From Epidermidibacterium keratini (GTDB taxonomy: Bacteria; Actinomycetota; Actinomycetes; Mycobacteriales; Antricoccaceae), in the NCBI RefSeq assembly GCF_009834025.1, contig NZ_CP047156.1, positions 2,108,001 to 2,172,000 of the forward strand: 64,000 bases of DNA, given 5' to 3'. Made by a program: the position numbers and the translations under genes. Under the pieces are notes generated by a model that made no database searches, was not told the DNA's origin, and saw nothing but the letters and a program-made list of their open reading frames with translations. Shown in pieces: positions 16,963 through 42,381 of the stretch (position 1 is the stretch's first letter; each line of letters opens with the position of its first letter).

Positions 16963-17348
16963 CGCCCCCATATCGGTGATTGAGCCCTCCGACAACCGGG
17001 CTCGTTCCTCGCCCTGCTCAGGACAAGCAACGACCGAGCGTTAGCGAGGGAGTGTCCGTCGAAATCACTTCCGCCGGGCAAGTGGTTTCGGGGTCTCGAC
17101 AACCGCTCAGGCCCCAGGGGGCCTTCGCTGCTCGACCACCGAACTCGAGGCCGCGACCCAATATCGGTGATCGAGCAACGAGGGAGCGTTAGCGACCGAG
17201 TGGTTGTCGAGATCACTTCCGCCGGCCGAGTGGTTTCGAGGTCTCGACAACCGCTCAGGCCCCAGGGGGCCTTCGCTGCTCGACCACCGGGTGGGGGCGG
17301 CTTCAAGGGACGCTTAGGCCCCCCGGGGCCTTCGCTGCTCGACCACCG
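16963..17348. repeat. Block of composite dispersed repeats between convergent genes
   Basis: Two near-identical composite units begin ATATCGGTGAT (16971 and 17161). Each joins an A core (GAGCGTTAGCGA) to a B core (GCTCAGGCCCCAGGGGGCC) and ends GCTGCTCGACCACCG. A third partial B copy runs from 17289 to 17348. The B core can fold through GGCCCC/GGGGCC. The block separates the convergent aminotransferase and CoA ligase and supplies the last codons and stop of the ligase. Confidence 0.85.
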
Positions 17349-18846
17349 CATTCGATGACACCCGCTGGCGGAGCTCGCGTTTGAGGATCTTGCCGACGGG
17401 CGAGAGCGGCATCTCGTCGATGAAGTCGATCGTCTTGGGCACCTTGTAGTGCGCGATCTGCTTGCCGGTGAACTCCCGTAGCGCCGAGGCGTCGACCGAC
17501 TCGCCGCCGGCGAGTACGACGTAAGCGTGCACCCGCTCACCCCAGTCGTCGTCGGGTACGCCGACCACCGCCACCTGGTCGACGGCCGGGTGCGCGGCCA
17601 GCGCCTTCTCCACCTCGGTGCTGTAGACGTTTTCGCCGCCGGTGACGATCATGTCCTTCACCCGGTCGACGACGTAAAGGAAACCCTCGTCGTCGAAGTA
17701 GCCGAGGTCGCCGGTGTGCATCCACCCACCGCGCAGCGTGTCGGCCGTCTGCTCGGGCAGGTTCCAGTAGCCCATCATCACGTTGGCGCCGCGCACCACC
17801 ACCTCGCCGACCTCCCCGGTCGGCAGCGGGCGGTCGGAGGGGTCCACGACCCGCACCTCGTTGTGCAGCGCCGCCCGTCCGGCCGAGCGCAACCGGTCGG
17901 GACGTTCCAGGTCGTGGTCGTGCGGAGCGAGGACCGTGGCAACCGGACCGAGCTCGGTCATGCCGTATCGCTGAGCGAGCAGTACGCCGGGCACCGCCTG
18001 CATAGTCAGCCGCAGCGTCGCCTCGGAGATCGGTGAGGCGCCGTACCCGATGCGCCGCAGCGTCGGCAGACTGCGACCGGAGGCCAGCGCCTCGGTGAAG
18101 ACGAGATGCATCATCGTCGGCACGAGCGTGGTCGCGCTGACCTCCTCGTGGCTGACCGTGTCGAGGAAGGCGTCGATCTCGAACGCCGGCAGCAGGATGT
18201 GGGTCGAGCCGAGCTGCACCTGAAGTAGCAACGATCCCAGGGCCGCGAGGTGGTAGAACGGCGATATATGTAGGAAACGCTCGGCAACCAGTGGCTGGCC
18301 GGCGCTCGCGAGAGAGCCGTACGTCGAGGTCAGGATGCCGCGGGCGTTGATCATCACGCCCTTGGCCCGGCCCGTGGTACCGCCGGTGTAAAGCAAGCCT
18401 GCTAGCTCGTCCCAGCCCATCCGCTGGTCCTCGATCGGCTCGCCGGATGCGATCAGCGAGTCGAGCTCCGCTGCTGTGCTCACCAGCTGACGCAGACCGG
18501 TCAGCCGTGACGCAGCTGCGGCGCACGCGTTGTCGGTGAAGCAGATCGCGATCTGCGCATCGTCGACCTGGAACTGCATCTCTGGCACCGACCAGCGGGC
18601 GTTGATCGGCGCAAAGACAAAGCCGCCCCATGCACACGCCAGCACAATCTCGGCGTACGCCGCACTGTTGAGCGAGAGGATGCCGATGCGATCGCCCGGC
18701 TGCGCTCCGAGCGACCGCAGCGCGCCGGCGAGCCGTGCGACGCGATCGGCGACCTCGCCGAAGCTCCGGCGCACCTCGCCGTCGATCAGCATCGTCGCAT
18801 CGGGCGCGAGTTGCAGGCTCTTGTGCAGCCCCGCGGTCAGATACAT
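17314..18846 (-). CDS. Fatty-acid/aryl-CoA ligase (AMP-binding)
   Basis: This 510-residue ANL-superfamily adenylate-forming enzyme activates a carboxylic acid to its CoA thioester. Motifs are YTGGTTGRAKGVM (P-loop), QRYGMTELGP, MHTGDLGYFDDEGFLYVVDRVKDMI and the C-terminal catalytic lysine in LSPVGKILKREL. The frame is open upstream, but the ATG at 18846 has GAAGGA before it and starts the fold properly (MYLTAGLHKSLQL). The last residues, VVEQRRPRGA, are encoded by the dispersed repeat, so the original stop was probably lost. It is likely the last gene of the minus operon; a repeat copy separates it from the acyl-CoA dehydrogenase. Confidence 0.9.
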   Translation of the reverse strand: MYLTAGLHKSLQLAPDATMLIDGEVRRSFGEVADRVARLAGALRSLGAQPGDRIGILSLNSAAYAEIVLACAWGGFVFAPINARWSVPEMQFQVDDAQIAICFTDNACAAAASRLTGLRQLVSTAAELDSLIASGEPIEDQRMGWDELAGLLYTGGTTGRAKGVMINARGILTSTYGSLASAGQPLVAERFLHISPFYHLAALGSLLLQVQLGSTHILLPAFEIDAFLDTVSHEEVSATTLVPTMMHLVFTEALASGRSLPTLRRIGYGASPISEATLRLTMQAVPGVLLAQRYGMTELGPVATVLAPHDHDLERPDRLRSAGRAALHNEVRVVDPSDRPLPTGEVGEVVVRGANVMMGYWNLPEQTADTLRGGWMHTGDLGYFDDEGFLYVVDRVKDMIVTGGENVYSTEVEKALAAHPAVDQVAVVGVPDDDWGERVHAYVVLAGGESVDASALREFTGKQIAHYKVPKTIDFIDEMPLSPVGKILKRELRQRVSSNAVVEQRRPRGA

Positions 18847-18867
18847 GCGTCGTCCTTCACGGATGCG

Positions 18868-18930
18868 GAGGCGGTTTCGAGGTCTCGACAACCGCTCAGG
18901 CCCCTGGGGCCTTCGCTGCTCGACCGCCGA
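18868..18930. repeat. Dispersed repeat copy (B type)
   Basis: The segment contains GAGGTCTCGACAACCGCTC, GGCCCCTGGGGCC and GCTGCTCGACCGCCG. It is the B-type version of the family found at 17000. Here it sits inside an otherwise collinear minus-strand operon, between the acyl-CoA dehydrogenase stop and the ligase start. Confidence 0.82.
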
Positions 18931-18940
18931 TGGGGAAACG

Positions 18941-20086
18941 CTAGAGGGAGCGGGCGATGAGCTCCTTCTGGATCTCGTTGGCTCCGCCGTAGATGCGCTG
19001 CGCACGCGCGTCGGCATACAGGCGCGCGATCGGGTACTCGGTCATGTAGCCGTAGCCGCCAAACAGCTGAAGGCACTGGTCGATCACCTGGCACTGCACG
19101 TCGGTCAGCCACCACTTGCACATCGCAGCGGTCGGGGTGTCGAGCCCCTCGTGCAGATGCGTGGCCATGCAGTCGTCGAGGAAGACGCCCGCAACCTTCG
19201 TCAGCGTGGCGGCCTCGGCAAGCTCGAAGCGGGTGTTTTGCATATCGATCAGTCGCTGGCCAAAGGCCTCTCGGTCCTTGACGTGCTGGCGGGTCACCTC
19301 CAGCGCGAGCTCCATGGCGCCGACCGCGGTGATGCCGATGATCAGCCGCTCCTGCGGCAGCTGGCTCATCATCATCGAGAAGCCGGTGCCCTCGCCGCCG
19401 AGCAGGTTGTCGGCGGGCACGCGTACGTCGTCGAAAAACAGCTCGCTGGTGTCCGCGCCGTGTTGGCCGACCTTGGACAGCACTCGACCGACCGAGAACC
19501 CGTCGGCCTTGCCGGTCTCCACGACGATCAGCGAGATGCCCTTGGCGCCGGCGTCCGGGTCGGTCTTAGCTGCGACCACGATGAGGTCGGCGCTGGATCC
19601 GTTGGTAATAAAGGTCTTTGAGCCGTTGATGACGTAGTCGTCACCGTCGCGACGCGCGGTCGTGCGAATCGCCTTGAGGTCCGATCCAGCCGACGGTTCC
19701 GTCATTCCGATCGCCGCGACGAGGTCGCCCGTTGCCATTCCCGGCAGCCACCGCTGGCGCTGCTGCTCGGTGCCGTAGTCGAGCAGGTAGTGCGCGACGA
19801 TCCCGCTGTGCACCGAGTTGCCCCACGCGCGGTCGCCGGTCTGCGAGTATGCCCACTGGATCGCCGCATGATGCACGAAGGTGCCCCCGCCGCCGCCGTA
19901 CTCCTCGGGAATCGAGGCGCACAGCAGGCCGAGCTCGCCAGCCTGCTTCCAGAACTCGCGGTCGACGTGCCGTTGCTCGGCCCACATCTGTGCCTTAGCA
20001 GCGACCTCGCGGGTGAGGAAGTCGCTGGCGAGATCGTAAAGATCGGCGACATCGCCGGTGATCCAGGCGCGTCCGTACCGGCTCAT
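18941..20086 (-). CDS. Acyl-CoA dehydrogenase
   Basis: This 381-residue FAD enzyme has the complete short/medium-chain acyl-CoA dehydrogenase pattern. It shows IPEEYGGGGG, AIGMTEPSAGSDLKAI, YVINGSKTFITNG, QRLIDMQNTRFELAE, FGGYGYMTEYPIARLYADAR and RIYGGANEIQKELIARSL. The glutamate in YMTEYP is near the expected catalytic position. It overlaps the MaoC-like gene upstream by ATGA. With the SDR, hydratase pair, ligase and the divergent thiolase it would supply the first oxidation step of a beta-oxidation-like pathway. Confidence 0.93.
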   Translation of the reverse strand: MSRYGRAWITGDVADLYDLASDFLTREVAAKAQMWAEQRHVDREFWKQAGELGLLCASIPEEYGGGGGTFVHHAAIQWAYSQTGDRAWGNSVHSGIVAHYLLDYGTEQQRQRWLPGMATGDLVAAIGMTEPSAGSDLKAIRTTARRDGDDYVINGSKTFITNGSSADLIVVAAKTDPDAGAKGISLIVVETGKADGFSVGRVLSKVGQHGADTSELFFDDVRVPADNLLGGEGTGFSMMMSQLPQERLIIGITAVGAMELALEVTRQHVKDREAFGQRLIDMQNTRFELAEAATLTKVAGVFLDDCMATHLHEGLDTPTAAMCKWWLTDVQCQVIDQCLQLFGGYGYMTEYPIARLYADARAQRIYGGANEIQKELIARSL

Positions 20087-20490
20087 GACGCCACCTCTAC
20101 GACGGCCCGCCCGGCCAGGGTGACTGTGCCATCGGCGAGGCGCACGGCCAGCTCCAGTTCCACTGTGCCGTCATCACCCACCGAGGCAACCGTGCCCGAG
20201 CAGGTCGGTGCGCCGTGCACCGGCGTGATCGAGACAAACCGCGTGCTGAAGTGGCGTACGGCGCTTTGCGGGGCGAGGGTGAGCAGGTAGCGGCTCAGGT
20301 AGGCCATCGACAGCATGCCGTGCGCAAAGACGTCGTCCAGCCCGGCGCTGCGCGCATTGTCGAGGTCGATGTGGATGGGGTTGTGGTCGTTGGACGCACC
20401 GGCGAACAGTGCGAGCGTGGTGCGTGAGATCGGGTCGATCTGCAGTTCTGGCAGCGCCGCGCCCTCCGCGAGCTCGGTCAGCGTGGACAT
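20083..20490 (-). CDS. MaoC-like hot-dog dehydratase subunit (catalytic-motif half)
   Basis: This is a 135-residue single hot-dog protein. It contains the hydratase-2 type signature FAGASNDHNPIHID with the expected D/H dyad, followed by DVFAHGMLSMAYLSRYL. It probably pairs with the 150-residue MaoC-like protein encoded just upstream, forming a split enoyl-CoA hydratase. The ATG at 20490 shares its A with the upstream TGA; a GTG one codon earlier is an alternative start. Split hydratases of this kind are known in steroid side-chain degradation. Confidence 0.87.
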   Translation of the reverse strand: MSTLTELAEGAALPELQIDPISRTTLALFAGASNDHNPIHIDLDNARSAGLDDVFAHGMLSMAYLSRYLLTLAPQSAVRHFSTRFVSITPVHGAPTCSGTVASVGDDGTVELELAVRLADGTVTLAGRAVVEVAS

Positions 20491-20942
20491 CACGAAAGTC
20501 CTTCCATAGCGCGAGAGATCAGCACGTTGGTGAGCGTGGCGATCGGCTCGTCGCCGCGGGTCACGTCGCTCTGGCGCACCAAGAAGCGCAGCGCCCCGCC
20601 CTTCTTCTCGTAGTAGTCGGTGTAGGAGCCGCTAAACGTCAGCTCGTCGCCGGCGTACGCCGCAGCGTGGTAGTCGAAGGCCTGCTCGCCATGCAGCACC
20701 GAGCGCATGTCGATGCCGAGCTCGGTGAGGATGCCGCGCGGGTTCGGGCGCAGCAGCTCAAGGCTGAACAGGAAGGTCGGCGGTAGCGGGATGTCGCGAT
20801 GGCCGGCGGCGCGCGCGGCTTCCACGTCGCGATACACCGGATCGTCCAGGCCGACCACCTCGGCGAAGAAGGCGATCTGGCCGCGCTCGGCGGTTGCGGT
20901 GAATGGCTCGAGGGCGCGCCCGATGACGTCTGTGGCTTGCAT
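20490..20942 (-). CDS. MaoC-like N-terminal-half (FAS1-like dehydratase) subunit
   Basis: This is a 150-residue hot-dog protein with the pattern of the non-catalytic half of double-hot-dog hydratases: PFTATAERGQIAFFAEVVG, PLPPTFLFSLELL, GEQAFDYHAAAYAGDELTF and a late YYEKKGGALRFLVRQSDVT. It lacks the D-x-N-x-x-H signature carried by its partner, which fits a heteromeric enzyme. The frame is open further upstream, but the ATG at 20942 fits the fold and follows the SDR by 10 bp. Confidence 0.85.
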   Translation of the reverse strand: MQATDVIGRALEPFTATAERGQIAFFAEVVGLDDPVYRDVEAARAAGHRDIPLPPTFLFSLELLRPNPRGILTELGIDMRSVLHGEQAFDYHAAAYAGDELTFSGSYTDYYEKKGGALRFLVRQSDVTRGDEPIATLTNVLISRAMEGLS

Positions 20943-20952
20943 CGTGACTCCT

Positions 20953-21864
20953 TTAGATCGACGACTTCCACTCGGGCGGGCCGGCCGGGATCTGCTCGAG
21001 CGCCGTGGCGAGCTCGTCGACCTCCCAGCGGCCGTCCTTGTCAAAAGCCTGCTCTTCTTCCCACATGCGCTGCAATCCCACGTGGCCGCCAAACACCGAG
21101 AAGACCCGTCCCGAGATCCGGCATGCGGGGTGAGCCAGCCACGCGACGAGCGGGGAGACATTCTCCGGCGCCCACGTGTCAAAACCGTCGCCCTCTTCCT
21201 TGATCCGGTCGCCCAGCCCAGGGGTCTGCTCCGTCAGTCGGGTGCGAGCGACCGGCGCAATTGCATTGACGCGTACGCCGTAGCGCTCCAGCTCGCGCGC
21301 GTGAACCACAGACATCGTGGCGATCGCGGCCTTGGCGGCGGCGTAGTTGGTCTGGCCGGGGTTGCCGCGCAGGCCGCTTCCGGATGAGGTGTTGACGATT
21401 GCCGCGTTGACCGGGCCGCCCTCCTTGGAGCGCGCTCGCCAGTAGTCGGCGGCATGCTTGGTCACCGCGAAGTGGCCCTTGAGGTGGACGGCGACGACGT
21501 CGTCAAACTCGTCCTCGGTCATGTTGACCAGCATGCGGTCGCGCAGTGTTCCGGCGTTGTTGATCAGCGCGTCCAGCCCGCCGAACGTATCGGTCGCGAG
21601 CTCGATCATCGCCTTCGCGTCGGCCCAGTCGGTGACGCTGCCGACGTGAGCGACCGCCTCACCGCCGCGGTCGCGAACCTCCTGGGCGACCTGCTCGGCA
21701 GGTCCGGCCTCCGAGCCGGCGCCGTCTGGGGCGCCACCGCTGTCGTTGACGACGACCCGCGCACCAAGGTCACCGAGCAAAAGTGCGTGGGCGCGACCGA
21801 GGCCGCGGCCGGCTCCGGTGATGATGACTGTCTTGTCTTCGAACCCGCCGTCAATTGTGGTCAC
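20953..21864 (-). CDS. SDR 3-hydroxyacyl-CoA dehydrogenase (MFE-2/Hsd4B-like)
   Basis: This 303-residue SDR resembles the dehydrogenase domain of peroxisomal multifunctional enzyme 2 and actinobacterial steroid side-chain dehydrogenases. It has VIITGAGRGLGRAHALLLG, VVVNDSGGAPDG, LINNAGTLRDRML, the catalytic TNYAAAKAAI and a C-terminal extension ending PPEWKSSI. It would oxidise a 3-hydroxyacyl-CoA. A longer open frame exists, but the GTG at 21864 gives VTTIDGGFEDKTV, the usual N-terminus. It is first in the minus operon, divergent from the double-TetR gene. Confidence 0.9.
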   Translation of the reverse strand: MTTIDGGFEDKTVIITGAGRGLGRAHALLLGDLGARVVVNDSGGAPDGAGSEAGPAEQVAQEVRDRGGEAVAHVGSVTDWADAKAMIELATDTFGGLDALINNAGTLRDRMLVNMTEDEFDDVVAVHLKGHFAVTKHAADYWRARSKEGGPVNAAIVNTSSGSGLRGNPGQTNYAAAKAAIATMSVVHARELERYGVRVNAIAPVARTRLTEQTPGLGDRIKEEGDGFDTWAPENVSPLVAWLAHPACRISGRVFSVFGGHVGLQRMWEEEQAFDKDGRWEVDELATALEQIPAGPPEWKSSI

Positions 21865-21913
21865 TCGTTCATCGTCCCTTCGGCTACGCACGTCGTTACT
21901 GATTTGGACGATA

Positions 21914-21925
21914 AACAGCACTGTT
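21914..21925. promoter_or_regulatory. Candidate TetR operator in the divergent promoter
   Basis: The perfect inverted repeat AACAG-CA-CTGTT lies in the 92-bp gap between the SDR and double-TetR genes. On the minus strand a TTGACT element (21932-21937) upstream and TTATCG downstream give a plausible promoter that the palindrome would occlude. This placement fits autoregulation and control of the minus operon. Only one site is seen, and binding is inferred. Confidence 0.5.
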
Positions 21926-21956: not shown

Positions 21957-23111
21957 GTGCCATCCGAGACGATCACCCAGCCCGACCGCGCGCAGCTGAT
22001 TAGCGCGGCGGCCGCTCCGGTGCTGCGTGGGCGTGGTTTTTCCAGCGTGGGGATCGATGAGATTGCGGCCGCCGCGGGGCTCACCGGGCCGGCGCTCTAT
22101 CGATATTTCGATGGCAAGCACGACGTGCTGGCAGATGTGATCGAGCGTTTTCTCGGCGAGCTCGCCGAGCTGACACCGCGGGCCGGTGTCGACGATCTGT
22201 CGCGCGCGGTCGTCGCGCATCCCGATGCCGCCTCGGTGGCGGTGCGCCAGATCGGACTGCTTGCCCCGGACGTCCGAGAGCGCCTGCTCACCGGCGTGCC
22301 CACGCAGGTGCGCGCGTTACTGCCGCTGACCCCGGAACCGGGTGAGGACATCGGAATGACTGTCAGCGATCGGGTGCGGCTGCGGGCCATCTACGGCGCG
22401 GCAATCCACTGCGGGCTGCGCCGCAGCGGCAGCCTGCCGGCGCGGACCCGGGCCGCGGTCGAAGCGGCACACGCGCTGGCCGACGTACCCATCACGCTCG
22501 ACGAGCCTGAACCGATGCCGCACGAGCGGCTCCTGCCGCTGTCTCGGCGCGAGGCGGTGATGGCGGTCGCGATGGATCTTTTCAGCCAGCATGGCTATGG
22601 CGGCGTGGCCCTGCGCGATATCGGTGCCGAGATCGGCGTCACGGCCTCGGCCGTCAGCAGGCACTTCGCATCCAAGGAAGACTTGCTGGTCGCGCTGTTT
22701 GACCGAGCGGGAAGCCAGATCGCGTCGTCGCTGCAGGCTGGTCTGCGTCGAGCCCAGAACCCGCGCGATGCGCTTGAGCGGGTACTGCGTGGATACAGCG
22801 CGATGGCGCTCGATAATCGCGAGCTGATTCTGATCTATATCAGCGAACGCAACTCTCTGAGCGCGGCCAACCGCGAGATCCGCCGCGACAACCACCTGGG
22901 CTATACCGCCGAGCTGCGGCAGCTCATTGAGCTGACGACGGGCCTGCCACGCGCCGTTGCGCAGCTCCGCGCGACGCTCGCCTTCTCCGTCGTCAACGAG
23001 GTGCTCTTTGACGAGCCGGCCTGCCGCCACCGCAACCTCGCCGGCGTACTCGGTCAGCTTGCCTACCAGGTGGCGACAAGTCCTGCAGTCTCTGCAGCGA
23101 AAGGAAAGTAG
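21957..23111 (+). CDS. Tandem double-TetR family transcriptional regulator
   Basis: This 384-residue regulator contains two complete TetR N-terminal DNA-binding domains. The first, near residues 10-57, reads FSSVGIDEIAAAAG and PALYRYFDGKHDVL. The second, near residues 180-230, reads YGGVALRDIGAEIGVTASAV and SRHFASKEDLLVALFD. Each is followed by a helical ligand-type segment, so the gene looks like a fused duplication. A GTG start is used. It is divergent from the SDR operon and 4 bp before the HMGCS-DUF35 gene, so it probably represses both arms in response to an acyl-CoA. Confidence 0.88.
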   Translation: MPSETITQPDRAQLISAAAAPVLRGRGFSSVGIDEIAAAAGLTGPALYRYFDGKHDVLADVIERFLGELAELTPRAGVDDLSRAVVAHPDAASVAVRQIGLLAPDVRERLLTGVPTQVRALLPLTPEPGEDIGMTVSDRVRLRAIYGAAIHCGLRRSGSLPARTRAAVEAAHALADVPITLDEPEPMPHERLLPLSRREAVMAVAMDLFSQHGYGGVALRDIGAEIGVTASAVSRHFASKEDLLVALFDRAGSQIASSLQAGLRRAQNPRDALERVLRGYSAMALDNRELILIYISERNSLSAANREIRRDNHLGYTAELRQLIELTTGLPRAVAQLRATLAFSVVNEVLFDEPACRHRNLAGVLGQLAYQVATSPAVSAAKGK

Positions 23112-23115
23112 GGTC

Positions 23116-24534
23116 ATGAGCGATCGGATCGGAATCCTCAGCTATGCCAGCTATCTGCCGCACTGGCGGTTGCGGCGAGAGGCGATTTCTGGCGTGCTCG
23201 GCAGTGGTGGCGCTCGAGGCAGTCGGGCGGTCGCAGGCTACGACCAGGACACCACCACGATGGCTGTCGAGGCCGGTCGTGTCGCGTTGCGCGGGTACGA
23301 CGGATCGCCTGCGGCACTGGTGTTTTCCAGCTCGTTTCCGGCGTATGCCGACAAGACGAACGCGACCACCGTGCACGCTGCGCTGAACCTGCCCTCGCAG
23401 GTGCGGGCCAGCGACGCGTGCGGCTCGGTGCGCAGCGCAGTGGGCGCGCTGCTCGCGGGACTGCACCAGCCCGGCGGGACGCTGGTCACGGTGGCCGACA
23501 CTCGCACTGGGCCGGCCGGGTCACCGGACGAGGCGGGCGGGGGTGACGCGGCTGCCGCGTTCGTTGTCGGGCCGGGAGACCCCATCGCCGAAGTCCTGGC
23601 GGTGGGTAGCGCGACGAGCGAGTTCCTCGACAGGTGGCGAGCGCCAGGCGAGCCGTGGTCGCAGAGCTGGGAAGAGCGCTTCGGCGAGGACGTGTACGTC
23701 GGTCTCGCCGAGCAGGCCACCGAGCGCGCCCTGGAGCTGGCCGGGCTACGTGCCGACCAGGTCGACCGGTGGGCGATGACCGGGCTTTCGCCCCGTGCCG
23801 TGAAGCGCGTGAGCCGCTCACTTGAGCTTGCGGACGGCGTACTCGCCGACGACCTGAGCTCGCAGATCGGCGTCGCCGCAGCCGCGCACGCCGGGCTGCT
23901 GCTGGCCGACCTGCTCGACCAGGCCCAGCCAGGCGAGGTGCTCGCGCTGACGGTGCTGGCCGACGGCGCCGACACCTTCGTGCTGAGAGCGGGCGAGCAG
24001 ATCACCGATCACCGCCAGCCTGAGCCGGTCCGCGAGCAAGCCGCCCGCGGTGACGACTCTCTGAGCTATGCCGACTTCCTGACGTGGAAGGGACAGCTGC
24101 AGCGGCCCGCGCCGCGACGGCCAGCGCCCGACCGGGCGGTCGCGCCGGCCACCTATCGCCACCAAGACTGGAAGTACGGCTTCGTGGCGAGCACCTGCGA
24201 GAAGTGCGGCACGCGCCACCTGCCGCCGCAGCGGGTGTGCCTGTCGTGCCACAGCGTGGATGCGATGCGGGCCGAGCCGATGGCCGATGCGCGTGCACGG
24301 ATTGCGACCTACACGATCGATCATCTGGCCTTCTCGCTCGCGCCTCCGACGGTCGGTGTCGTCCTCGACCTGGACGGCGGCGGGCGCTTCTCGTGCGAGC
24401 TGACCGACTGCGACCCGGAGCAGGTGCGCGTCGGGCAACCGGTGCAGCTGACCTTCCGCCGGATCTCTGATGCGAGCGGAATCCACAACTATTTCTGGAA
24501 AGCACGCCCTGCGGCGGAAGGAGAGACGGCATGA
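23116..24534 (+). CDS. HMG-CoA-synthase-like ketosynthase fused to a DUF35 zinc-ribbon/OB domain
   Basis: This 472-residue fusion starts with an archaeal-type HMG-CoA synthase fold: IGILSYASYLPHWRLRRE, GYDQDTTTMAVEAGR, NATTVHAALNLP and a candidate nucleophile C102 in SDACGSVRSA. The C-terminal part is a DUF35 module with zinc ribbon C361-x2-C364 and C375-x2-C378, then an OB fold (IATYTIDHLAF, VGVVLDLDGGGRF). In archaea, separate thiolase, DUF35 and HMGCS proteins form one channelled complex. Here HMGCS and DUF35 are fused, and the thiolase gene overlaps by ATGA. The reaction direction and acyl group are unknown. Confidence 0.87.
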   Translation: MSDRIGILSYASYLPHWRLRREAISGVLGSGGARGSRAVAGYDQDTTTMAVEAGRVALRGYDGSPAALVFSSSFPAYADKTNATTVHAALNLPSQVRASDACGSVRSAVGALLAGLHQPGGTLVTVADTRTGPAGSPDEAGGGDAAAAFVVGPGDPIAEVLAVGSATSEFLDRWRAPGEPWSQSWEERFGEDVYVGLAEQATERALELAGLRADQVDRWAMTGLSPRAVKRVSRSLELADGVLADDLSSQIGVAAAAHAGLLLADLLDQAQPGEVLALTVLADGADTFVLRAGEQITDHRQPEPVREQAARGDDSLSYADFLTWKGQLQRPAPRRPAPDRAVAPATYRHQDWKYGFVASTCEKCGTRHLPPQRVCLSCHSVDAMRAEPMADARARIATYTIDHLAFSLAPPTVGVVLDLDGGGRFSCELTDCDPEQVRVGQPVQLTFRRISDASGIHNYFWKARPAAEGETA

Positions 24535-25724
24535 GCTCGCATGGAATCAAGGATCGCGTCGCGATCATCGGGATGGGGTGCACGCGGTTTGCCGAGCACT
24601 GGGACAAGGGTGCCGATGACCTCATCGTCGATGCGGTCACCGAGGCTCTCGACTCGGCCGGTGTCGCCCGAGATGCCATCGACGCCTACTGGCTCGGCAC
24701 GCTGACCTCCGGCTACTCCGGGATGATGCTGTCGTCGGCGCTCAAGCTCGACTACAAGCCGGTCACGCGCGTCGAGAACTTCTGCGCGAGTGGGTCTGAG
24801 TCGTTCCGCAATGCCTGCTATGCCGTGGCTTCTGGCGCCTACGACATGGTCATGGCCGTCGGCGTCGAGAAGCTCAAGGACTCCGGCTACTCGGGATTGA
24901 CCCGGGCCAACCCGCCCGACGACGGCACGTCGACGTCGCTGTCGGCACCGGCGCGGTTTTCCATGCTCGTGCCGGCGTACGCCGAGAAGTACGGCGTCGA
25001 CCGCGGGGACATCAAGAAGGCGATGACCCGCGTTGCCTACAAGAACCACTACAACGGCGCGCGAAACTCGCGGGCCCAGTTCCAGGCCGAGGTGAGCGAG
25101 GAGAAGATCGCTGGAGCGCCGGCGGTTGCCGGCGACCTCGGCGTCTTCGACTGCTCAGGAGTCAGCGACGGTGCTGCCGCCGCGATCATCGTGCGAGCCG
25201 AGGATGCGCACAAGTACACCGATAATCCCTTGTATGTAAAGGCTCTAGCGTTCGCTGCCGGTCCAGGGACCGGCACCTACGATCCGGCGTACGACTACAC
25301 AACCTTCGGGGAGGTGGTGCAGTCGGCACGCGATGCCTACCAGCAGGCCGAGGTCGACAGCCCTGCTGACGAGCTGATGATGGCCGAGGTGCATGACTGC
25401 TTCACCCCGACCGAGCTCGTGCTCATGGAAGACCTCGGCTTCTCCGAACGCGGCGAGGCGGTCGCCGACACGATGGCCGACAAGTACGCGCTATCCGGCG
25501 CATTGCCGGTCAACCCCGACGGCGGGCTCAAGAGCTTCGGTCACCCCATCGGGGCCTCTGGGCTCCGGATGCTTTACGAGTGCTGGTTGCAGCTGCGCGA
25601 GGAGGCGCCGCCGGAGCGGCAGATCGCGGCCAAGGGCAAGCGCTACGGACTGACCCACAACCTTGGCGGCGGGCCTGGCGAGTGCGTGTCGTTCGTGGCG
25701 ATCGTGGGCGCGGAGCAGGGATGA
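24531..25724 (+). CDS. Thiolase/SCP-x-type acyltransferase
   Basis: This 397-residue thiolase-fold protein is of the SCP-x/lipid-transfer-associated type. It has the nucleophile segment VENFCASGSESFRNACYAVA, then MAVGVEKLKDSG, VHDCFTPTELVLMEDLG, a GGLKSFGHPIGASGLRML histidine block and LTHNLGGGPGECVSF with the second cysteine. Family members cleave 3-oxoacyl-CoA or, as Ltp2 does with a DUF35 partner, carry out retro-aldol cleavage. Overlap with the upstream HMGCS-DUF35 gene and the downstream crotonase makes a protein complex likely. Confidence 0.92.
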   Translation: MSSHGIKDRVAIIGMGCTRFAEHWDKGADDLIVDAVTEALDSAGVARDAIDAYWLGTLTSGYSGMMLSSALKLDYKPVTRVENFCASGSESFRNACYAVASGAYDMVMAVGVEKLKDSGYSGLTRANPPDDGTSTSLSAPARFSMLVPAYAEKYGVDRGDIKKAMTRVAYKNHYNGARNSRAQFQAEVSEEKIAGAPAVAGDLGVFDCSGVSDGAAAAIIVRAEDAHKYTDNPLYVKALAFAAGPGTGTYDPAYDYTTFGEVVQSARDAYQQAEVDSPADELMMAEVHDCFTPTELVLMEDLGFSERGEAVADTMADKYALSGALPVNPDGGLKSFGHPIGASGLRMLYECWLQLREEAPPERQIAAKGKRYGLTHNLGGGPGECVSFVAIVGAEQG

Positions 25725-26539
25725 GCTCGCCGGATGCCTCCGCGTCGTCGGGCGCAGGGGTGCGTTGGAGTCGCTCGGCGCCGGGCGTCGCGCTGATCGA
25801 GTTCACGCGTCCCGAGAGACGCAACCCGCTCGATGTCGAGACCGGCCTGCGGCTGGTTGAGATTCTTGCCGAGATCGAAGCCGACGAGTCCGTGCGGGCG
25901 GTGGTGATCACCGGACGCGGCGGCGCCTTCAGCGCGGGCGGCGACATCGACCACATCGCGCGGATCCCGTCCAGACCTGAGGCCGAGACCGCGGCCAGCT
26001 TCGCCACGCGGTTTGCGGTGTCCGAGGCGATCTACAACTCTGCAAAGGCATATATAGCGGCGATCTCCGGGCCTGTAGTCGGTGCTGCCTTCGGGTTGGC
26101 ACTGGCGTGCGACCTGCGGATCGGGGATGAGACGGCGATGTTCCTTGCGCCGTTCTCCCGCATGGGCCTGGTGCCGGACTACGGGCTGTCGTGGCTACTG
26201 CCGCGGACGGTAGGCACGAGTGCTGCGCTGGAGGTGGCGCTGCTTGGCGACCGGATCGGGGCGCTCGACGCGCACCGCCTCGGCGTACTGAACCGGGTTG
26301 TCGACGACCCGCTCGCCGCGGCGCTCGGTGCGGCCGGCGTATTGGCCAGTCGACCGGCCTACGGCATCGCCGAGACGAAACGGCTCGCCCATGCCGCGAT
26401 GGACCGGCCCTTCTCCGAGGGTCTCGCTGACGAGGTGGCCGCGCAGGCGCGGGGATTCCAGCAGCCCGAAGTGCAGTCCGAGGTAGCGGCATACACCCAG
26501 AGCATCGGCAACCGCGCCAAGACGAAACGTGGTGCGTGA
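25721..26539 (+). CDS. Enoyl-CoA hydratase/isomerase family protein
   Basis: This is a 272-residue crotonase. The oxyanion-hole segments are GRGGAFSAGGDI and ISGPVVGAAFGLALACDLRI. The position that often holds a catalytic glutamate reads FSRMGLVPDYGLSWLLPR, where an aspartate follows the proline, so isomerase or hydrolase chemistry is possible. The ATG overlaps the thiolase stop by 4 bp; a longer upstream frame is open but would run inside the thiolase. It is part of the plus arm of the acyl-CoA cluster. Confidence 0.88.
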   Translation: MSSPDASASSGAGVRWSRSAPGVALIEFTRPERRNPLDVETGLRLVEILAEIEADESVRAVVITGRGGAFSAGGDIDHIARIPSRPEAETAASFATRFAVSEAIYNSAKAYIAAISGPVVGAAFGLALACDLRIGDETAMFLAPFSRMGLVPDYGLSWLLPRTVGTSAALEVALLGDRIGALDAHRLGVLNRVVDDPLAAALGAAGVLASRPAYGIAETKRLAHAAMDRPFSEGLADEVAAQARGFQQPEVQSEVAAYTQSIGNRAKTKRGA

Positions 26540-26549
26540 AGGAGGAAAC

Positions 26550-27821
26550 ATGAGGTATCGCAGCAATTCTGTGCGAACCGGGCTCATCGCGGTGAGCGTG
26601 GCGATCGCTCTCGGCGGCTGCTCGACGAAGGCGGCGAACTCGGACTCAGGATCGGGCAACGGAGGTGACGGTCTCAAGACCGACGTCGGCGTCACCGACG
26701 ACACGATCACGCTCGGTGTGCTGACAGATCTGTCCGGTCCCTACAAGATCTCCGGCCTGGCCACCAGCAACGGCAACCAGCTATGGGCTGATGATGTCAA
26801 CTCTCGCGGGGGCATCTGCGGGCGTGAGGTCAAGCTCGACGTTCAGGAGTCCGGATATAAGCCGGATAACGCGATCCCGCTGTATGAGCAGATGCGCCAG
26901 AACGATCTGGCGATGCTGCAGCTGCTGGGCTCGCCGGTGCTCGCGGCGTTGAAGCAGAAGCTCATCTCCGACAACATGATCGCGATCCCCTCAGCGTTCA
27001 CCTCAGACATTCTCGACAATGACGTCGTCATGCTCGTGGGCCAAAGCTATGACGTGGAGATGATCAACGGGCTGGCCTACCTGCAGCAACAGGGCAAGAT
27101 CGACAACGGGTCGAAGGTCGGTCATATCTACCTCGACAACGAGGCGGGCAAGAACTCGCTTGAAGGCGCGAAGTTCTATGCCGAGCAGCATGATCTGGAG
27201 ATCGTCGAGGCGTCGGTGTCGGCGACCGATACCGACATGACGTCGGTGATGACGAAGATGAAGTCCGAGGGTGTCGAAGCGATCCTGGTGCTCTCCACCC
27301 CCGCGGCGACCGGATCGATTGCCCTGCAGAACGTGGCGCAAGGCCTCAACGTGCCGATCGTCGGCAACAACCCGACGTACGCCGCCACCCTGCTGCAGGA
27401 CGAGCAGGTGACCGCTGCTCTGGACAACTTCCTGCTGGTGAACTCGGTCGCGGCGTACGCGAGCGACCTGCCGACGTCTAAGAAGGTGGTCGAGGCCTAC
27501 GAGGCGGCGTACGACGAGGCGCCGGAGAAGTCGGTGCCGACCGGGTTCGCGTTTGGGTTGGCGATGGAGCAGCTGCTGCAACAGGCTTGCGACGACGGCG
27601 ACATGACGCGCGAGGGACTCATCGCGGCGAAGAAGAAGCTCGACGATGTCGACACACAGGGGCTGACCGGCACGCTGGACTTCTCCACGCCAGGCTCGCC
27701 GAGCAGCCGCGAGGCCTACATCCTGCGTGTCGACCCGCAGGTGCCCGCCGGGTTGGTCAACGTCGGCGACCTGTTTACCTCACCGGAGGCCAAGGAGTAC
27801 AAGGCGCCGTACGAGAAGTAG
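26550..27821 (+). CDS. ABC transporter substrate-binding lipoprotein (LivK type)
   Basis: This 423-residue exported binding protein starts at an ATG preceded by GAAGGAGGAAAC. A signal peptide with lipobox LGGC sits at about residues 22-27, followed by a Ser/Gly-rich linker. The mature part shows ITLGVLTDLSGPY, GNQLWADDVNSRGGICGREV and VPIVGNNPTYAATLL, typical of branched-chain amino acid type receptors that also bind aromatic or alicyclic acids. It ends the plus operon, so it may capture the substrate degraded by the cluster. No matching permease or ATPase gene is nearby. Confidence 0.9.
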   Translation: MRYRSNSVRTGLIAVSVAIALGGCSTKAANSDSGSGNGGDGLKTDVGVTDDTITLGVLTDLSGPYKISGLATSNGNQLWADDVNSRGGICGREVKLDVQESGYKPDNAIPLYEQMRQNDLAMLQLLGSPVLAALKQKLISDNMIAIPSAFTSDILDNDVVMLVGQSYDVEMINGLAYLQQQGKIDNGSKVGHIYLDNEAGKNSLEGAKFYAEQHDLEIVEASVSATDTDMTSVMTKMKSEGVEAILVLSTPAATGSIALQNVAQGLNVPIVGNNPTYAATLLQDEQVTAALDNFLLVNSVAAYASDLPTSKKVVEAYEAAYDEAPEKSVPTGFAFGLAMEQLLQQACDDGDMTREGLIAAKKKLDDVDTQGLTGTLDFSTPGSPSSREAYILRVDPQVPAGLVNVGDLFTSPEAKEYKAPYEK

Positions 27822-39419: not shown

Positions 39420-41255
39420 TCAGCCAGACGGGGGAACCGCGGCGCCGTCGAACTCCAGGCCCTCGAAGCGGCCGTTCGTGCGCCAGTCGGCCACGTAATC
39501 GAAGAACGCGAGTGACCCGCCGGGGAAGCGCCCGGAGTTGAGCCGCTCGCGACGGCCTTCGTGCTGTCCCTCGTTGTTGTAGTAGCCGGGGGTGCAGTCC
39601 GGCCCGCCGACGATGCCCTTGGGGACGGTGAGCACGGACTCGACCCACGCGGCCTGCGCGGCGGCGGATGCCTCGACGGTGCGGGCGCCGCTAGCGCGAA
39701 GGTGCCCCAGGATCGCGGCGATGGTGAAGCCCTGGTCGGTGTAGTTGCTCGTGATGTTCGACAGCAGCGCCGAGCCTTGGGCGTGGCCGATGATGAAGAG
39801 GTTGGGGAAGCCATGGATGTGCATGCCCTGGAACGTCTGCATGCCCTCGGCCCACGTCTCGGTCAGGGTGCGGCCATCACGTCCGTAGACCTCCAGCCCC
39901 GACTTGAACGTGTACTCCGAATTGAACTCAAAACCGCTGGCATAGACGATCACGTCGAGCTCGTAGTGCACCCCGTCGACCCACACTCCGGTCTCGTCGA
40001 TCCGCTCGACGCCCCGGCCGTCGGTGTCGACCAGATGCACGTTGGGCCGGTTGTACGTCGGCAGGTAGTCGTCGTGGAAGCACGGCCGCTTGCAGTACTG
40101 CCGATACCACGCCTTCAGCTGCTGCGCGGTCTGCGGATCCTCGACGATCTCGTCGACCCGCGCGCGGATCCTGGTCATCTGCTCGTCGTCAGAGTCGTGG
40201 TACGCCGCCATGAAGTCCGCGTGGGTGAGTTCTGCGGGCGGTTTGTCCGAGGCGAGCATCCGCGCGACGATGCGTTTCGCGCCGTCGGTCCAGCCGTCGT
40301 GGACGAGGTCTTCCTCAGCGAGCCCGGTCGCCTGCAGCTGCACGAAGTTACGTAGCCACTTCGCCTGCCAGCCCGGCTCCAGAGCGGCGTACCACTGCGG
40401 GTCGATGGGATGGTTGCCGCGTACGTCGACCGCCGACGGCGTGCGCTGGAAGACGAACAGCTCGCCGCTGTCGCGACCGAGCTGCGGGATGCACTGCACG
40501 GCAGTGGCCCCGGTGCCGATGATTCCGACGCGCTTGTCAGCGAGCCGGGTCATCACGCCGCCGTCCCAGTCACCGCCGGTGACGTTGAAGTCCCAGCGCG
40601 CGGTGTGAAACGCCTCGCCTTGGTAAGTCTCGATCCCAGGTATACCTGGCAAGTGTGGACGGTTGAGCGGGCCGGTCCCCATGGCGACCGTCGTGGCGGT
40701 GAACTTGTCGCCCTCGCGGGTCCGCACGATCCACCGCGATGCGCTCTCGTCCCAGGTGAGCGATTCGAGATGCGTGCTGAACAGCGCGTGCGGGTAGAGG
40801 TCGTAGTGGCGGCCGATGCGCTGCGCGTGTGCGAGGATCTCTGGTCCGTGCACGTACTTGGCCGACGGCATGTGCCCGGTCTCCTCGAGCAGCGGCAGAT
40901 AGACCATCGCCGCCGTGTCGCACATGGCGCCGGGGAAACGGTTCCAGTACCAGACGCCGCCGAAGTCACCTCCGGCCTCCAGGATCCGGAAGTCGTCGAA
41001 GCCGGCCTCCTTGAGCCGCGCGCAGATCGTGAGACCGGCAAAACCGCCACCGATAAAGAGAAACTCGACGTGATCGTGCACTGTCTCGCGCGGCATGACG
41101 GCGGTGAAAGGGTCGGTGTCGGCGCTCGCGACGATCCCGTCGAGTGCGCGCCACTGCCGGATCCCATCCGAGCGCAACCGCTTCTCGCGCTCGACGGCGT
41201 ACTTGCGGTGCATGGCCTCGCGGTCAGTCGCATCGAGCACGGGTGGCTGCCTCAC
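39420..41255 (-). CDS. Baeyer-Villiger-type FAD monooxygenase
   Basis: This 611-residue two-dinucleotide-fold flavoprotein has the FAD loop GGGFAG at residues 69-74, the NADPH loop GTGATA in VGIIGTGATAVQ, and a BVMO fingerprint variant YQGEAFHTARWDF between them (usual F-x-G-x3-H-x3-W). An N-terminal extension of about 60 residues is like that of larger phenylacetone/steroid BVMOs. It would insert oxygen into a ketone to give an ester or lactone. It is coupled by GTGA overlap to the epimerase/dehydrogenase gene upstream. Confidence 0.9.
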   Translation of the reverse strand: MRQPPVLDATDREAMHRKYAVEREKRLRSDGIRQWRALDGIVASADTDPFTAVMPRETVHDHVEFLFIGGGFAGLTICARLKEAGFDDFRILEAGGDFGGVWYWNRFPGAMCDTAAMVYLPLLEETGHMPSAKYVHGPEILAHAQRIGRHYDLYPHALFSTHLESLTWDESASRWIVRTREGDKFTATTVAMGTGPLNRPHLPGIPGIETYQGEAFHTARWDFNVTGGDWDGGVMTRLADKRVGIIGTGATAVQCIPQLGRDSGELFVFQRTPSAVDVRGNHPIDPQWYAALEPGWQAKWLRNFVQLQATGLAEEDLVHDGWTDGAKRIVARMLASDKPPAELTHADFMAAYHDSDDEQMTRIRARVDEIVEDPQTAQQLKAWYRQYCKRPCFHDDYLPTYNRPNVHLVDTDGRGVERIDETGVWVDGVHYELDVIVYASGFEFNSEYTFKSGLEVYGRDGRTLTETWAEGMQTFQGMHIHGFPNLFIIGHAQGSALLSNITSNYTDQGFTIAAILGHLRASGARTVEASAAAQAAWVESVLTVPKGIVGGPDCTPGYYNNEGQHEGRRERLNSGRFPGGSLAFFDYVADWRTNGRFEGLEFDGAAVPPSG

Positions 41256-42241
41256 TTCGTCTGGCTGTGGTGGTCGGCAAGATACTGCTCTATCACCGAG
41301 TCGATGCTCGCGTCCGGTTGCAGGCCGAGGGCGGCGGCGCGGGTGTTGTCGAAGCGCGGCGGCCAGTCCGCGACGATCGCCTCGATGGCCGGGTCACGTT
41401 GCACGCTCACCAGGTCCGCGACTGCATCACCGGCGACGCGCCGCAGTCCGTCGATCATGTCGGCGACCGTGACCGACAGCCCGGGCAAGTTGACCGGCAG
41501 CCGCCCGGTGAGCTGACCCGACGCCGTACCTCGCTCCGCCTCGAGCATCGCGATGATTCCTTCGACGGTGCGACGCGGCGAACTGATCACCACCCGCTGG
41601 GCCGGGTCAACAGGGCACACCGCGGGTACGCCGGCCAGCGGCTCGCGGATGATCCCGGACAGGAACCCGGACGCCGCGGCGTTGGGTTTGCCCGGCCGCA
41701 CGCTGACGGTCATGAGCCGGGCGACGCGGCCGTCGATGAGTCCACGGCGCGTGTAGTCGGCGATGAGGCCCTCGCAGACAACTTTCTCGGCACCGTAGGA
41801 GTTCTGCGGCTGCGGGTACGTCGCTTCGGTGACCGCATCGGGCAGCGGGAGCGCTGCGTCTGCGCCGTACACCGCCACGCTGGAGGCAAAGAACAGCCGC
41901 ACGGTCGGCCCACCGGCTGCCTGTTGTGCACGCGCCGCGTCGAGTACGCCGCGTGTCAGGTCGACGTTGGCGCGCAGGCCGAGATCGAGGTCGGCCTCGC
42001 TCTCCCCGGACACCGCCGCGGCCAGGTGGATGACCGCGTCGACCGGCTCGGCAAAGACCCGCGGCAGCGTCTCGTGCAGGTCACCAAGCACCGACCTCGC
42101 CTGCGGCACCTCCGTGCCGGCCGCGCGGTCAGCGAGCACGATCTCGGTGATCGGCTGACCGGCCAACCCGCCGCGGCGCAGCAACTCATCGCACACTGCT
42201 CGGCCAAGAAACCCATGCCCACCGGTGATCACGATCCGCAT
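41252..42241 (-). CDS. NAD-dependent epimerase/dehydratase, D-erythronate dehydrogenase-like
   Basis: This 329-residue extended SDR has MRIVITGGHGFLGRAV (GxxGxxG), VIHLAAAVSGESEADLDLG, FFASSVAVYG and catalytic SYGAEKVVCEGLI. The segments LMTVSVRPGKPN, ASGFLSGIIREPL and the late RFDNTRAAALGL match my memory of D-erythronate 4-dehydrogenase DenD. The other erythronate genes (ltnD, otnC, otnK) are absent. The ATG at 42241 follows GAGAGGAG; the 16-codon upstream extension is unlikely. It is coupled to the monooxygenase. Confidence 0.85.
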   Translation of the reverse strand: MRIVITGGHGFLGRAVCDELLRRGGLAGQPITEIVLADRAAGTEVPQARSVLGDLHETLPRVFAEPVDAVIHLAAAVSGESEADLDLGLRANVDLTRGVLDAARAQQAAGGPTVRLFFASSVAVYGADAALPLPDAVTEATYPQPQNSYGAEKVVCEGLIADYTRRGLIDGRVARLMTVSVRPGKPNAAASGFLSGIIREPLAGVPAVCPVDPAQRVVISSPRRTVEGIIAMLEAERGTASGQLTGRLPVNLPGLSVTVADMIDGLRRVAGDAVADLVSVQRDPAIEAIVADWPPRFDNTRAAALGLQPDASIDSVIEQYLADHHSQTK

Positions 42242-42381
42242 GACGACGCTCCTCTCGATCCGCCCCGCTGCCCAATTGGACGAAAGCAAAGACCTCGTGC
42301 ACTATCTCGCACGACCCCTGCGCTCTCTCGCGCGAGTCGTGGATGAACATGGTCGACCCCGCGGGAGGGCTGGAGCAACTC

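Follow-up and report, generated by a model that had tools for sequence, protein, structure and literature searches.

A fused HMGCS-like/DUF35 protein and its partner SCP2-type thiolase in Epidermidibacterium keratini: a probable degradative beta-ketothiolase complex

In Epidermidibacterium keratini, a stretch of 64,000 nucleotides (contig NZ_CP047156.1, positions 2,108,001 to 2,172,000, hereafter the window) carries a gene in which a domain resembling archaeal 3-hydroxy-3-methylglutaryl-coenzyme A (HMG-CoA) synthase (HMGCS) is fused to a DUF35 domain, and which is directly followed by a gene for an SCP2-type thiolase. The reading that we favour, with a probability of roughly 70%, is that both products form a degradative beta-ketothiolase complex, in which a dead HMGCS-like domain and DUF35 serve as one scaffold polypeptide. 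The two-gene module, widespread in bacteria and frequently set among genes of degradation, probably helps to cut carbon chains; the physical complex, the scaffold or cavity role of the fusion, the direction of the reaction and the class of substrate are what we infer from the evidence below. By analogy, the design would be that of the PhlACB acyltransferase, the chemistry that of a thiolase.

The fusion gene (23116..24534, forward strand) begins with an ATG at 23116, upstream of which sits AGGAAAG, and its open reading frame (ORF) ends with a stop at 24534, giving a protein of 472 residues. The HMGCS-like domain, of thiolase fold, covers residues 1-330 (23116..24105, +). It is followed by a zinc ribbon (zf-ChsH2, residues 356-380; 24181..24255, +), in which the four zinc cysteines Cys361, Cys364, Cys375 and Cys378 are all present, and by an OB fold (OB_ChsH2_C, the former DUF35, residues 390-448; 24283..24459, +). 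Both Pfam models identify the DUF35 part, with 27.6 bits against a cut-off of 23.2 for the ribbon and 50.3 against 27.1 for the OB fold. Among solved structures, 6esq is the closest by sequence to all three parts: HMGCS-like domain, DUF35 and thiolase. An earlier reading of the DNA made from its letters (the sequence-only reading) had proposed the fusion with its coordinates and zinc cysteines, and the ATGA overlap with the thiolase, and had related all three parts to the archaeal thiolase/HMGCS/DUF35 complex; ORFs and domain matches bear out the former, and 6esq as nearest structure the latter.

The HMGCS-like domain is a relative of archaeal HMGCS rather than a member of that family. Residues 4-329 match the archaeal HMGCS models NF003274 (E 1.8e-37, 129 bits) and TIGR00748 (E 2.7e-23, 83 bits), both scores lying under the curated cut-offs of 244 and 353 bits. 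No Pfam model for HMGCS and no ketoacyl synthase III (KAS III) family model from NCBIfam or Pfam matches the fusion at E<=0.001, which leaves it outside KAS III as defined by these models, and the Cys and His of a KAS III active site are missing as well. The structure of the fusion was predicted with AlphaFold2 from a 35-row alignment, at a mean predicted local distance difference test (pLDDT) of 87.6 and a predicted template modelling score of 0.89; its weakest parts are the linker at 331-350 (block means 63 and 54), residues 451-460 (64) and the last two residues (41). Compared with solved structures (VIA-align), the predicted model ranks the archaeal HMGCS subunit 6esq_J first (Z 43.2, root-mean-square deviation 2.0 A over 327 residues), with PhlA (9skh_A, Z 42.3) tied within 1 of it, followed by MucA (9vbo_A, Z 38.8), MvaS (36.7) and FabH2 (33.0), so that the domain, as modelled, has the fold of an HMGCS subunit.

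A tree of 76 of the 131 aligned rows, thinned by similarity and rooted on one FabH, unites the bacterial fusions in one group (support 98/97). Archaeal HMGCS, PhlA, MucA and a Priestia protein are grouped beside them (97/35), and a fusion from the haloarchaeon Natrialba joins the bacterial ones weakly (88/52). A KAS III origin of the domain was considered and finds no support in family models, fold or tree, with the caveat that the two deepest splits just given are weak and that the single FabH branch is very long. These data support, against a thin reference set, a domain akin to the archaeal HMGCS/PhlA kind and not to KAS III.

What the domain appears to have lost is the HMGCS active site. 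The catalytic columns were defined by aligning 6esq_I, two PhlA chains and MucA with the fusion (MAFFT): Glu82 and Cys114 are given as the archaeal catalytic residues in the part of PMC6392133 that was available, and the third column, His238, is our own reading of the FHQPN motif. At these positions the window fusion has Ser, Val and Thr. The same columns were inspected in 123 family members, namely 105 distinct fusions, the window's included (from 113 fusion-like ORFs above 150 bits, 110 of them full), and 18 more from opened plasmid loci and others; not one carries the Glu, the Cys or the His, two being gapped at the Cys column. The alignment itself behaves as expected: in the genome's own FabH (309.6 bits against a FabH cut-off of 292.1) the corresponding columns hold Cys and His, and PhlA has Cys in place of the Glu and Gly in place of the Cys, in agreement with the same portion of PMC6392133. 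MucA, with Cys, Glu and Gln at the Glu, Cys and His columns, is also devoid of the HMGCS residues, which makes loss of this site common to the acyltransferase complexes; in lacking Cys and Glu, the fusion's HMGCS-like part is like that of PhlACB.

On these three columns archaeal-type HMGCS activity is rejected, and its sequence makes the domain a very improbable HMG-CoA synthase. A working synthase, with the pair as a fused form of the archaeal thiolase/HMGCS complex, could draw on archaeal HMGCS being the top match by sequence and by fold, and on a gapped phmmer alignment that sets Cys102 of the window on the catalytic Cys; given the empty columns throughout the 123 members and scores under both curated cut-offs, this is hardly credible. 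As for Cys102, a shifted catalytic cysteine was tried and rejected, since phmmer reaches Cys114 only via gaps, no more than 6 of 105 relatives have the residue, and MAFFT places Val105 of the window, not Cys102, in the column of Cys114. With the Glu, Cys and His absent, only one recognisable active site is left in the pair; the HMGCS chemistry, and with it the two-site channelling, envisaged by the sequence-only reading is unsupported. Among the findings that would speak against it, that reading had named a domain that groups with KAS III enzymes and lacks the catalytic residues: the residues are indeed missing, but the domain does not fall among KAS III enzymes.

A domain without its old site might have gained a second activity through other conserved residues, for example Asp100 (105/105 relatives), Arg106 (100/105) or Arg227 (104/105). 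Asp100, however, is common to HMGCS, PhlA, MucA and FabH and so looks structural, the window has Ser in place of the His225 that 90 of 105 relatives keep, and the proximity of these residues to the old pocket is itself judged from sequence; we consider such a new activity quite improbable. The zinc ribbon follows a different pattern: the four cysteines are all present in 64 of the 123 family members and all absent in the other 59, with at least three changes of state on the tree. This all-or-none distribution fits real zinc binding where the cysteines are kept, and suggests that zinc is dispensable for the module in many lineages.

In contrast to the HMGCS-like domain, the thiolase (24531..25724, +; 397 residues), whose start overlaps the end of the fusion by ATGA, has a complete set of catalytic motifs. 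It scores 587 bits with NF004810 (cut-off 403) and has the presumed nucleophile Cys85 (codon 24783..24785, +), which aligns with the cysteine of CASGS in 6esq_A, an HDCF motif at residues 288-291 (25392..25403, +) and a GHP motif at residues 337-339 (25539..25547, +). All three are invariant in 90 of 90 partner thiolases (108 thiolase-like ORFs reduced to full, distinct rows, the window's included), and are kept by all eight partners at the plasmid fusion loci described below, four of them proteobacterial, three actinobacterial and one haloarchaeal. The SCP2-thiolase 6hsj has the same motifs, and the roles of Cys85, His338 and HDCF are those that we take them to have from work on SCP2-thiolases.

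The sequence-only reading had thought of C-C bond cleavage in the manner of Ltp2. In a catabolic aldolase complex of the Ltp2-ChsH2 or Sal-Shy type, a 3-hydroxyacyl-CoA would be split into a ketone or aldehyde and a short CoA ester; a DUF35 partner and a thiolase fold resembling Ltp2 and Sal, MaoC hydratase genes nearby, and the position of the Cys of HDCF, which falls on an essential Cys in the YDCY of Sal (according to the accessible text of PMC12329534), would all suit it. Both aldolases depend, however, on the Tyr of YDHF or YDCY (same source and extent), which is His288 here, invariant in 90 of 90, and the nucleophile Cys85 and GHP are retained, next to a dehydrogenase of the short-chain dehydrogenase/reductase (SDR) family that could make a beta-keto substrate. 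HDCF in place of YDHF/YDCY makes a true thiolase much likelier than an aldolase, and aldol cleavage is improbable and finds no support in the 90 sequences.

Fusion and thiolase recur together well beyond the window. The genome (4.02 Mb, one contig) has a single copy of the fusion, and a full-length fused gene is found in four of the five genomes of the family, its own included (the three others at 59-71% identity), and in 29 of the 296 genomes of the class, again counting its own (E<=1e-20). A scan of named genomes gave 291 relatives, among them (as labelled) Acidimicrobiia, Streptomyces, Frankia, Nocardia, Mycobacterium, Chloroflexi, Rokubacteria and Acidobacteria; recurrence at these three levels excludes chance. 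Plasmid records added 33 matches, for example in Rhodococcus, Sphingobium, Novosphingobium, Variovorax and Azoarcus, annotated as "OB-fold domain-containing protein" (12), hypothetical (10), "3-oxoacyl-ACP synthase III C-terminal" (8), hydroxymethylglutaryl-CoA synthase (1) or uncharacterized (1), with one carrying no annotation. The haloarchaeon Natrialba magadii has a 481-residue fusion beside a thiolase, a 3-hydroxyacyl-CoA dehydrogenase and an acyl-CoA dehydrogenase, which contradicts the earlier notion of a bacterial version: the fusion is neither unique nor confined to bacteria. Among the best 80 of the 291 relatives, hence those nearest the window, to which all counts of named loci refer, 78 have a thiolase of the same type on the same strand, no more than 2 kb downstream of the fusion (1.8 kb in locus L079); 72 of these thiolases are complete and 6 are truncated by the end of the contig. 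At the two remaining loci the contig stops 108-114 bases past the fusion. The pairing is near-obligate. Elsewhere in the E. keratini genome (G000:C1:3999483-3999875), a second DUF35-like stretch lies beside a different thiolase-like ORF.

The surroundings of the pair in the window are those of acyl-CoA degradation, as the sequence-only reading had supposed in placing it in a catabolic cluster. Downstream on the forward strand, the thiolase overlaps by ATGA, at 25721, an enoyl-CoA hydratase/isomerase family gene (25721..26539), and a branched-chain-type ABC substrate-binding protein (Peripla_BP_6; 26529..27821, start codon uncertain) comes next. On the reverse strand, upstream, lie an acyl-CoA ligase of the AMP-binding type (17314..19017), the ORF of which overlaps the dehydrogenase gene named next and probably has its true start further downstream, an acyl-CoA dehydrogenase (18941..20086), a HadB-like MaoC hydratase subunit (20083..20493), a HadA-like hydratase subunit (FAS1_DH_region; 20490..20942, the start being taken as the first ATG of the reading frame) and the SDR dehydrogenase (20953..21921), a candidate 3-hydroxyacyl-CoA dehydrogenase. 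Together these genes would suit the breakdown of a bulky or branched acid by a beta-oxidation-like route. Between the two sets, a TetR-family regulator (21957..23111, +; 384 residues) with two TetR_N stretches in tandem ends 4 bases ahead of the fusion. Further away, 15 kb from the fusion, an FMO-like monooxygenase gene adjoins an epimerase/3beta-HSD-like gene (39420-42289, -).

The link to this route can be followed in relatives. In a genome of another family (G073), genes for the SDR, both MaoC subunits and the acyl-CoA dehydrogenase (65, 56, 60 and 70% identity, respectively) follow one another as they do in the window, some 8 kb away from fusion and thiolase and on the same strand; between this set and the pair lie an FMO-like monooxygenase gene, as also seen in the window, and genes for a Peripla_BP_6 protein, a protein with no Pfam match and an ABC permease. 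A homologue of the first MaoC subunit (E<=1e-25) is present in 11 of the 296 genomes and the fusion in 29, seven genomes having both (hypergeometric p 1e-5, uncorrected for kinship, five of the seven belonging to one family). Close homologues (at least 50%) of the window's acyl-CoA dehydrogenase, SDR or second MaoC subunit are found at only 4 of the 80 named loci. Acyl-CoA ligase, dehydrogenase, hydratase or CoA-transferase genes are present at all eight of the annotated plasmid loci that were opened, each of which has both fusion and thiolase (Rhodococcus DK17, R. qingshengii, M. avium pP7a, Novosphingobium ES2-1, Azoarcus KH32C, Sphingobium TomTYG72, Natrialba and Niveispirillum); ring-hydroxylating dioxygenase genes occur at three (R. 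qingshengii, M. avium and Niveispirillum). The R. qingshengii and M. avium plasmids share a gene order in which three genes of the enoyl-CoA hydratase family are followed by the ligase gene, the alpha and beta genes of the dioxygenase, a small gene and then fusion and thiolase. This recalls an ibuprofen-type logic, and the M. avium plasmid has one additional thiolase ahead of the fusion.

Several observations weigh against a degradative complex built on a dead domain. The reference set consists of four HMGCS/Phl/Muc chains and one FabH, and the archaeal HMGCS model that gives the fusion 129 bits gives the genome's FabH 98, so that this score by itself separates the families weakly. If the catalytic columns are relaxed (Cys within 4 residues, Glu within 1, His within 3), 9 of the 123 members have all three residues, which leaves a small chance of a shifted site in rare members; the window fusion has only the Cys, at Cys102, three residues off. 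The predicted thiolase model reached a pLDDT of only 47 from a 10-row alignment and was set aside. The three nearest relatives (L126-L128, about 10 kb inspected on each side) keep fusion and thiolase without the SDR-MaoC set, and two of the three have homologues of the ligase or dehydrogenase that are no more than distant, so the link to the pathway rests mainly on G073. Finally, at 36 of the 80 named loci the fusion is preceded on its own strand by a gene of a NifU-domain cluster (about 218 residues, the two starts being mostly 0.7 kb apart), which is not obviously a degradation setting; neighbour families here are similarity clusters, each named through Pfam on one representative. At 23 of the 80, the strand opposite the fusion carries a DXS-like gene, in most cases 2.8 kb downstream. 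By their labels, the 36 loci with the NifU-type gene are 18 Acidimicrobiia, 4 Actinomycetes, 8 Actinomycetota with no class given, 1 Acidobacteriota and 5 with no phylum given; in that lineage the surroundings of the pair look like those of housekeeping genes.

Such loci bear on another reading, that of a biosynthetic complex, condensing or acyl-transferring in the manner of PhlACB or MucABC. The same three parts, including the dead HMGCS-like one, are found there, thiolases work in both directions, and at many named loci the NifU-type neighbour stands in place of degradation genes. Yet the neighbours in the window and on the plasmids are ligases, dehydrogenases, hydratases and parts of an importer, and a Phl-like thiolase of Priestia encoded beside nonribosomal peptide synthetase (NRPS) genes has lost the HDCF that the fusion partners retain, so that biosynthesis is unlikely for the pair of the window.

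If the pair is indeed a degradative beta-ketothiolase complex, Cys85 would take the acyl group from a beta-ketoacyl-CoA, His338 and HDCF would complete the active site, and CoA would then release two shortened CoA esters. The fusion would be the non-catalytic partner, its HMGCS-like domain retaining the archaeal fold and not the active site; together with the attached DUF35, this domain would clamp the thiolase and line part of the cavity for substrate and CoA, much as PhlA and PhlB do for PhlC, and the fusing of both scaffold parts would set their ratio at 1:1 as well as their position. The substrate here is probably a bulky or branched carboxylic acid, which would pass from ligase to acyl-CoA dehydrogenase, two-subunit MaoC hydratase, SDR dehydrogenase and thiolase. 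A bolder version can be put forward only tentatively, as a doubtful extension: fusions and thiolases would be widespread, undescribed degradative complexes amounting to the archaeal mevalonate channel turned round, the dead HMGCS chamber orienting bulky acyl-CoA tails. The pocket of that chamber, and not the thiolase, would then set the substrate range, allowing Actinomycetota, Pseudomonadota, Chloroflexota and haloarchaea to adapt one thiolase to different compounds.

The pair would be a form, so far little studied, of an enzyme complex already known, rather than a machine of a new kind. Should the degradative reading hold, a family of at least 291 relatives, variously annotated at present, would consist of non-catalytic thiolase scaffolds, and the adjoining thiolases may need their partner co-expressed for assay. 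The pair would also offer, as a natural fusion, a degradative counterpart to PhlACB and the archaeal complex, useful for studying the role of a dead HMGCS domain, and would guard against taking fusion genes for genes of the mevalonate pathway.

Several known systems share parts of this architecture. In Ltp2-ChsH2 and Sal-Shy, both catabolic, a thiolase fold is bound to a DUF35 that is itself fused to another protein (PMC12329534 and PMC11321319, in the portions available); unlike in the window, the motif is YDHF or YDCY rather than HDCF, and DUF35 is fused to MaoC, not to an HMGCS-like domain. The benzoylsuccinyl-CoA thiolase BbsAB (7pxp), a thiolase with a DUF35 partner, matches the thiolase of the window. 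To our knowledge, BbsAB has no HMGCS-like domain. The consulted section of PMC12329534 groups it with 6ESQ and 5M3K among structurally homologous complexes. The extract of the SSO2064 paper (PMC2954200) describes DUF35 fused to members of the thiolase superfamily, as well as an active/inactive pair in phlABC, so that the general idea of such fusions has been in print since 2010. No experimental study of the fused HMGCS-DUF35 family itself was found in the open-licence literature, among the matches listed. In ibuprofen degradation, IpfE is a DUF35 protein, and the ipf set has a ligase and a Rieske dioxygenase. The ipfDE-encoded thiolase acts in the breakdown of ibuprofen, an aryl-alkanoic acid, and IpfD/IpfE is thereby a degradative thiolase, as the pair of the window probably is, for which the available part of PMC9195938 mentions no HMGCS-like domain.

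Closer in composition are the complexes with an HMGCS-like subunit. MucABC of Streptococcus macacae (9vbo, 9vbt), a "multi-component acyltransferase" by PDB entry title, has an HMGCS-like subunit that resembles the fusion, as the structural comparison above indicates, but consists of separate subunits. On a Priestia megaterium plasmid (locus L164), separate genes for HMGCS-like, thiolase and zinc-ribbon proteins lie beside the NRPS genes and show a loss of catalytic residues of the Phl kind; the thiolase, lacking HDCF, differs from the fusion partners in an alignment that PhlC itself stands outside, and the set is possibly a further acyltransferase of the PhlACB/MucABC type. PhlACB (5m3k, 9skh) likewise combines a dead HMGCS-like subunit, DUF35 and an active thiolase-fold subunit: PhlA is devoid of the Cys and Glu, and the transfer involves only residues of PhlC (both from the excerpt of PMC6392133), which provides a precedent for a dead HMGCS-like partner. 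It differs from the window in being biosynthetic and encoded by three separate genes, two of its parts being joined here in one ORF. Lastly, in the archaeal acetoacetyl-CoA thiolase/HMGCS/DUF35 complex of M. thermolithotrophicus (6esq, 6et9), all three parts are homologous to those of the window, and AEVHDCF and the CASGS cysteine of its thiolase align with the thiolase described here. Unlike in that complex, the HMGCS-like and DUF35 parts of the window form one polypeptide, the HMGCS site is lost and the setting is degradative.

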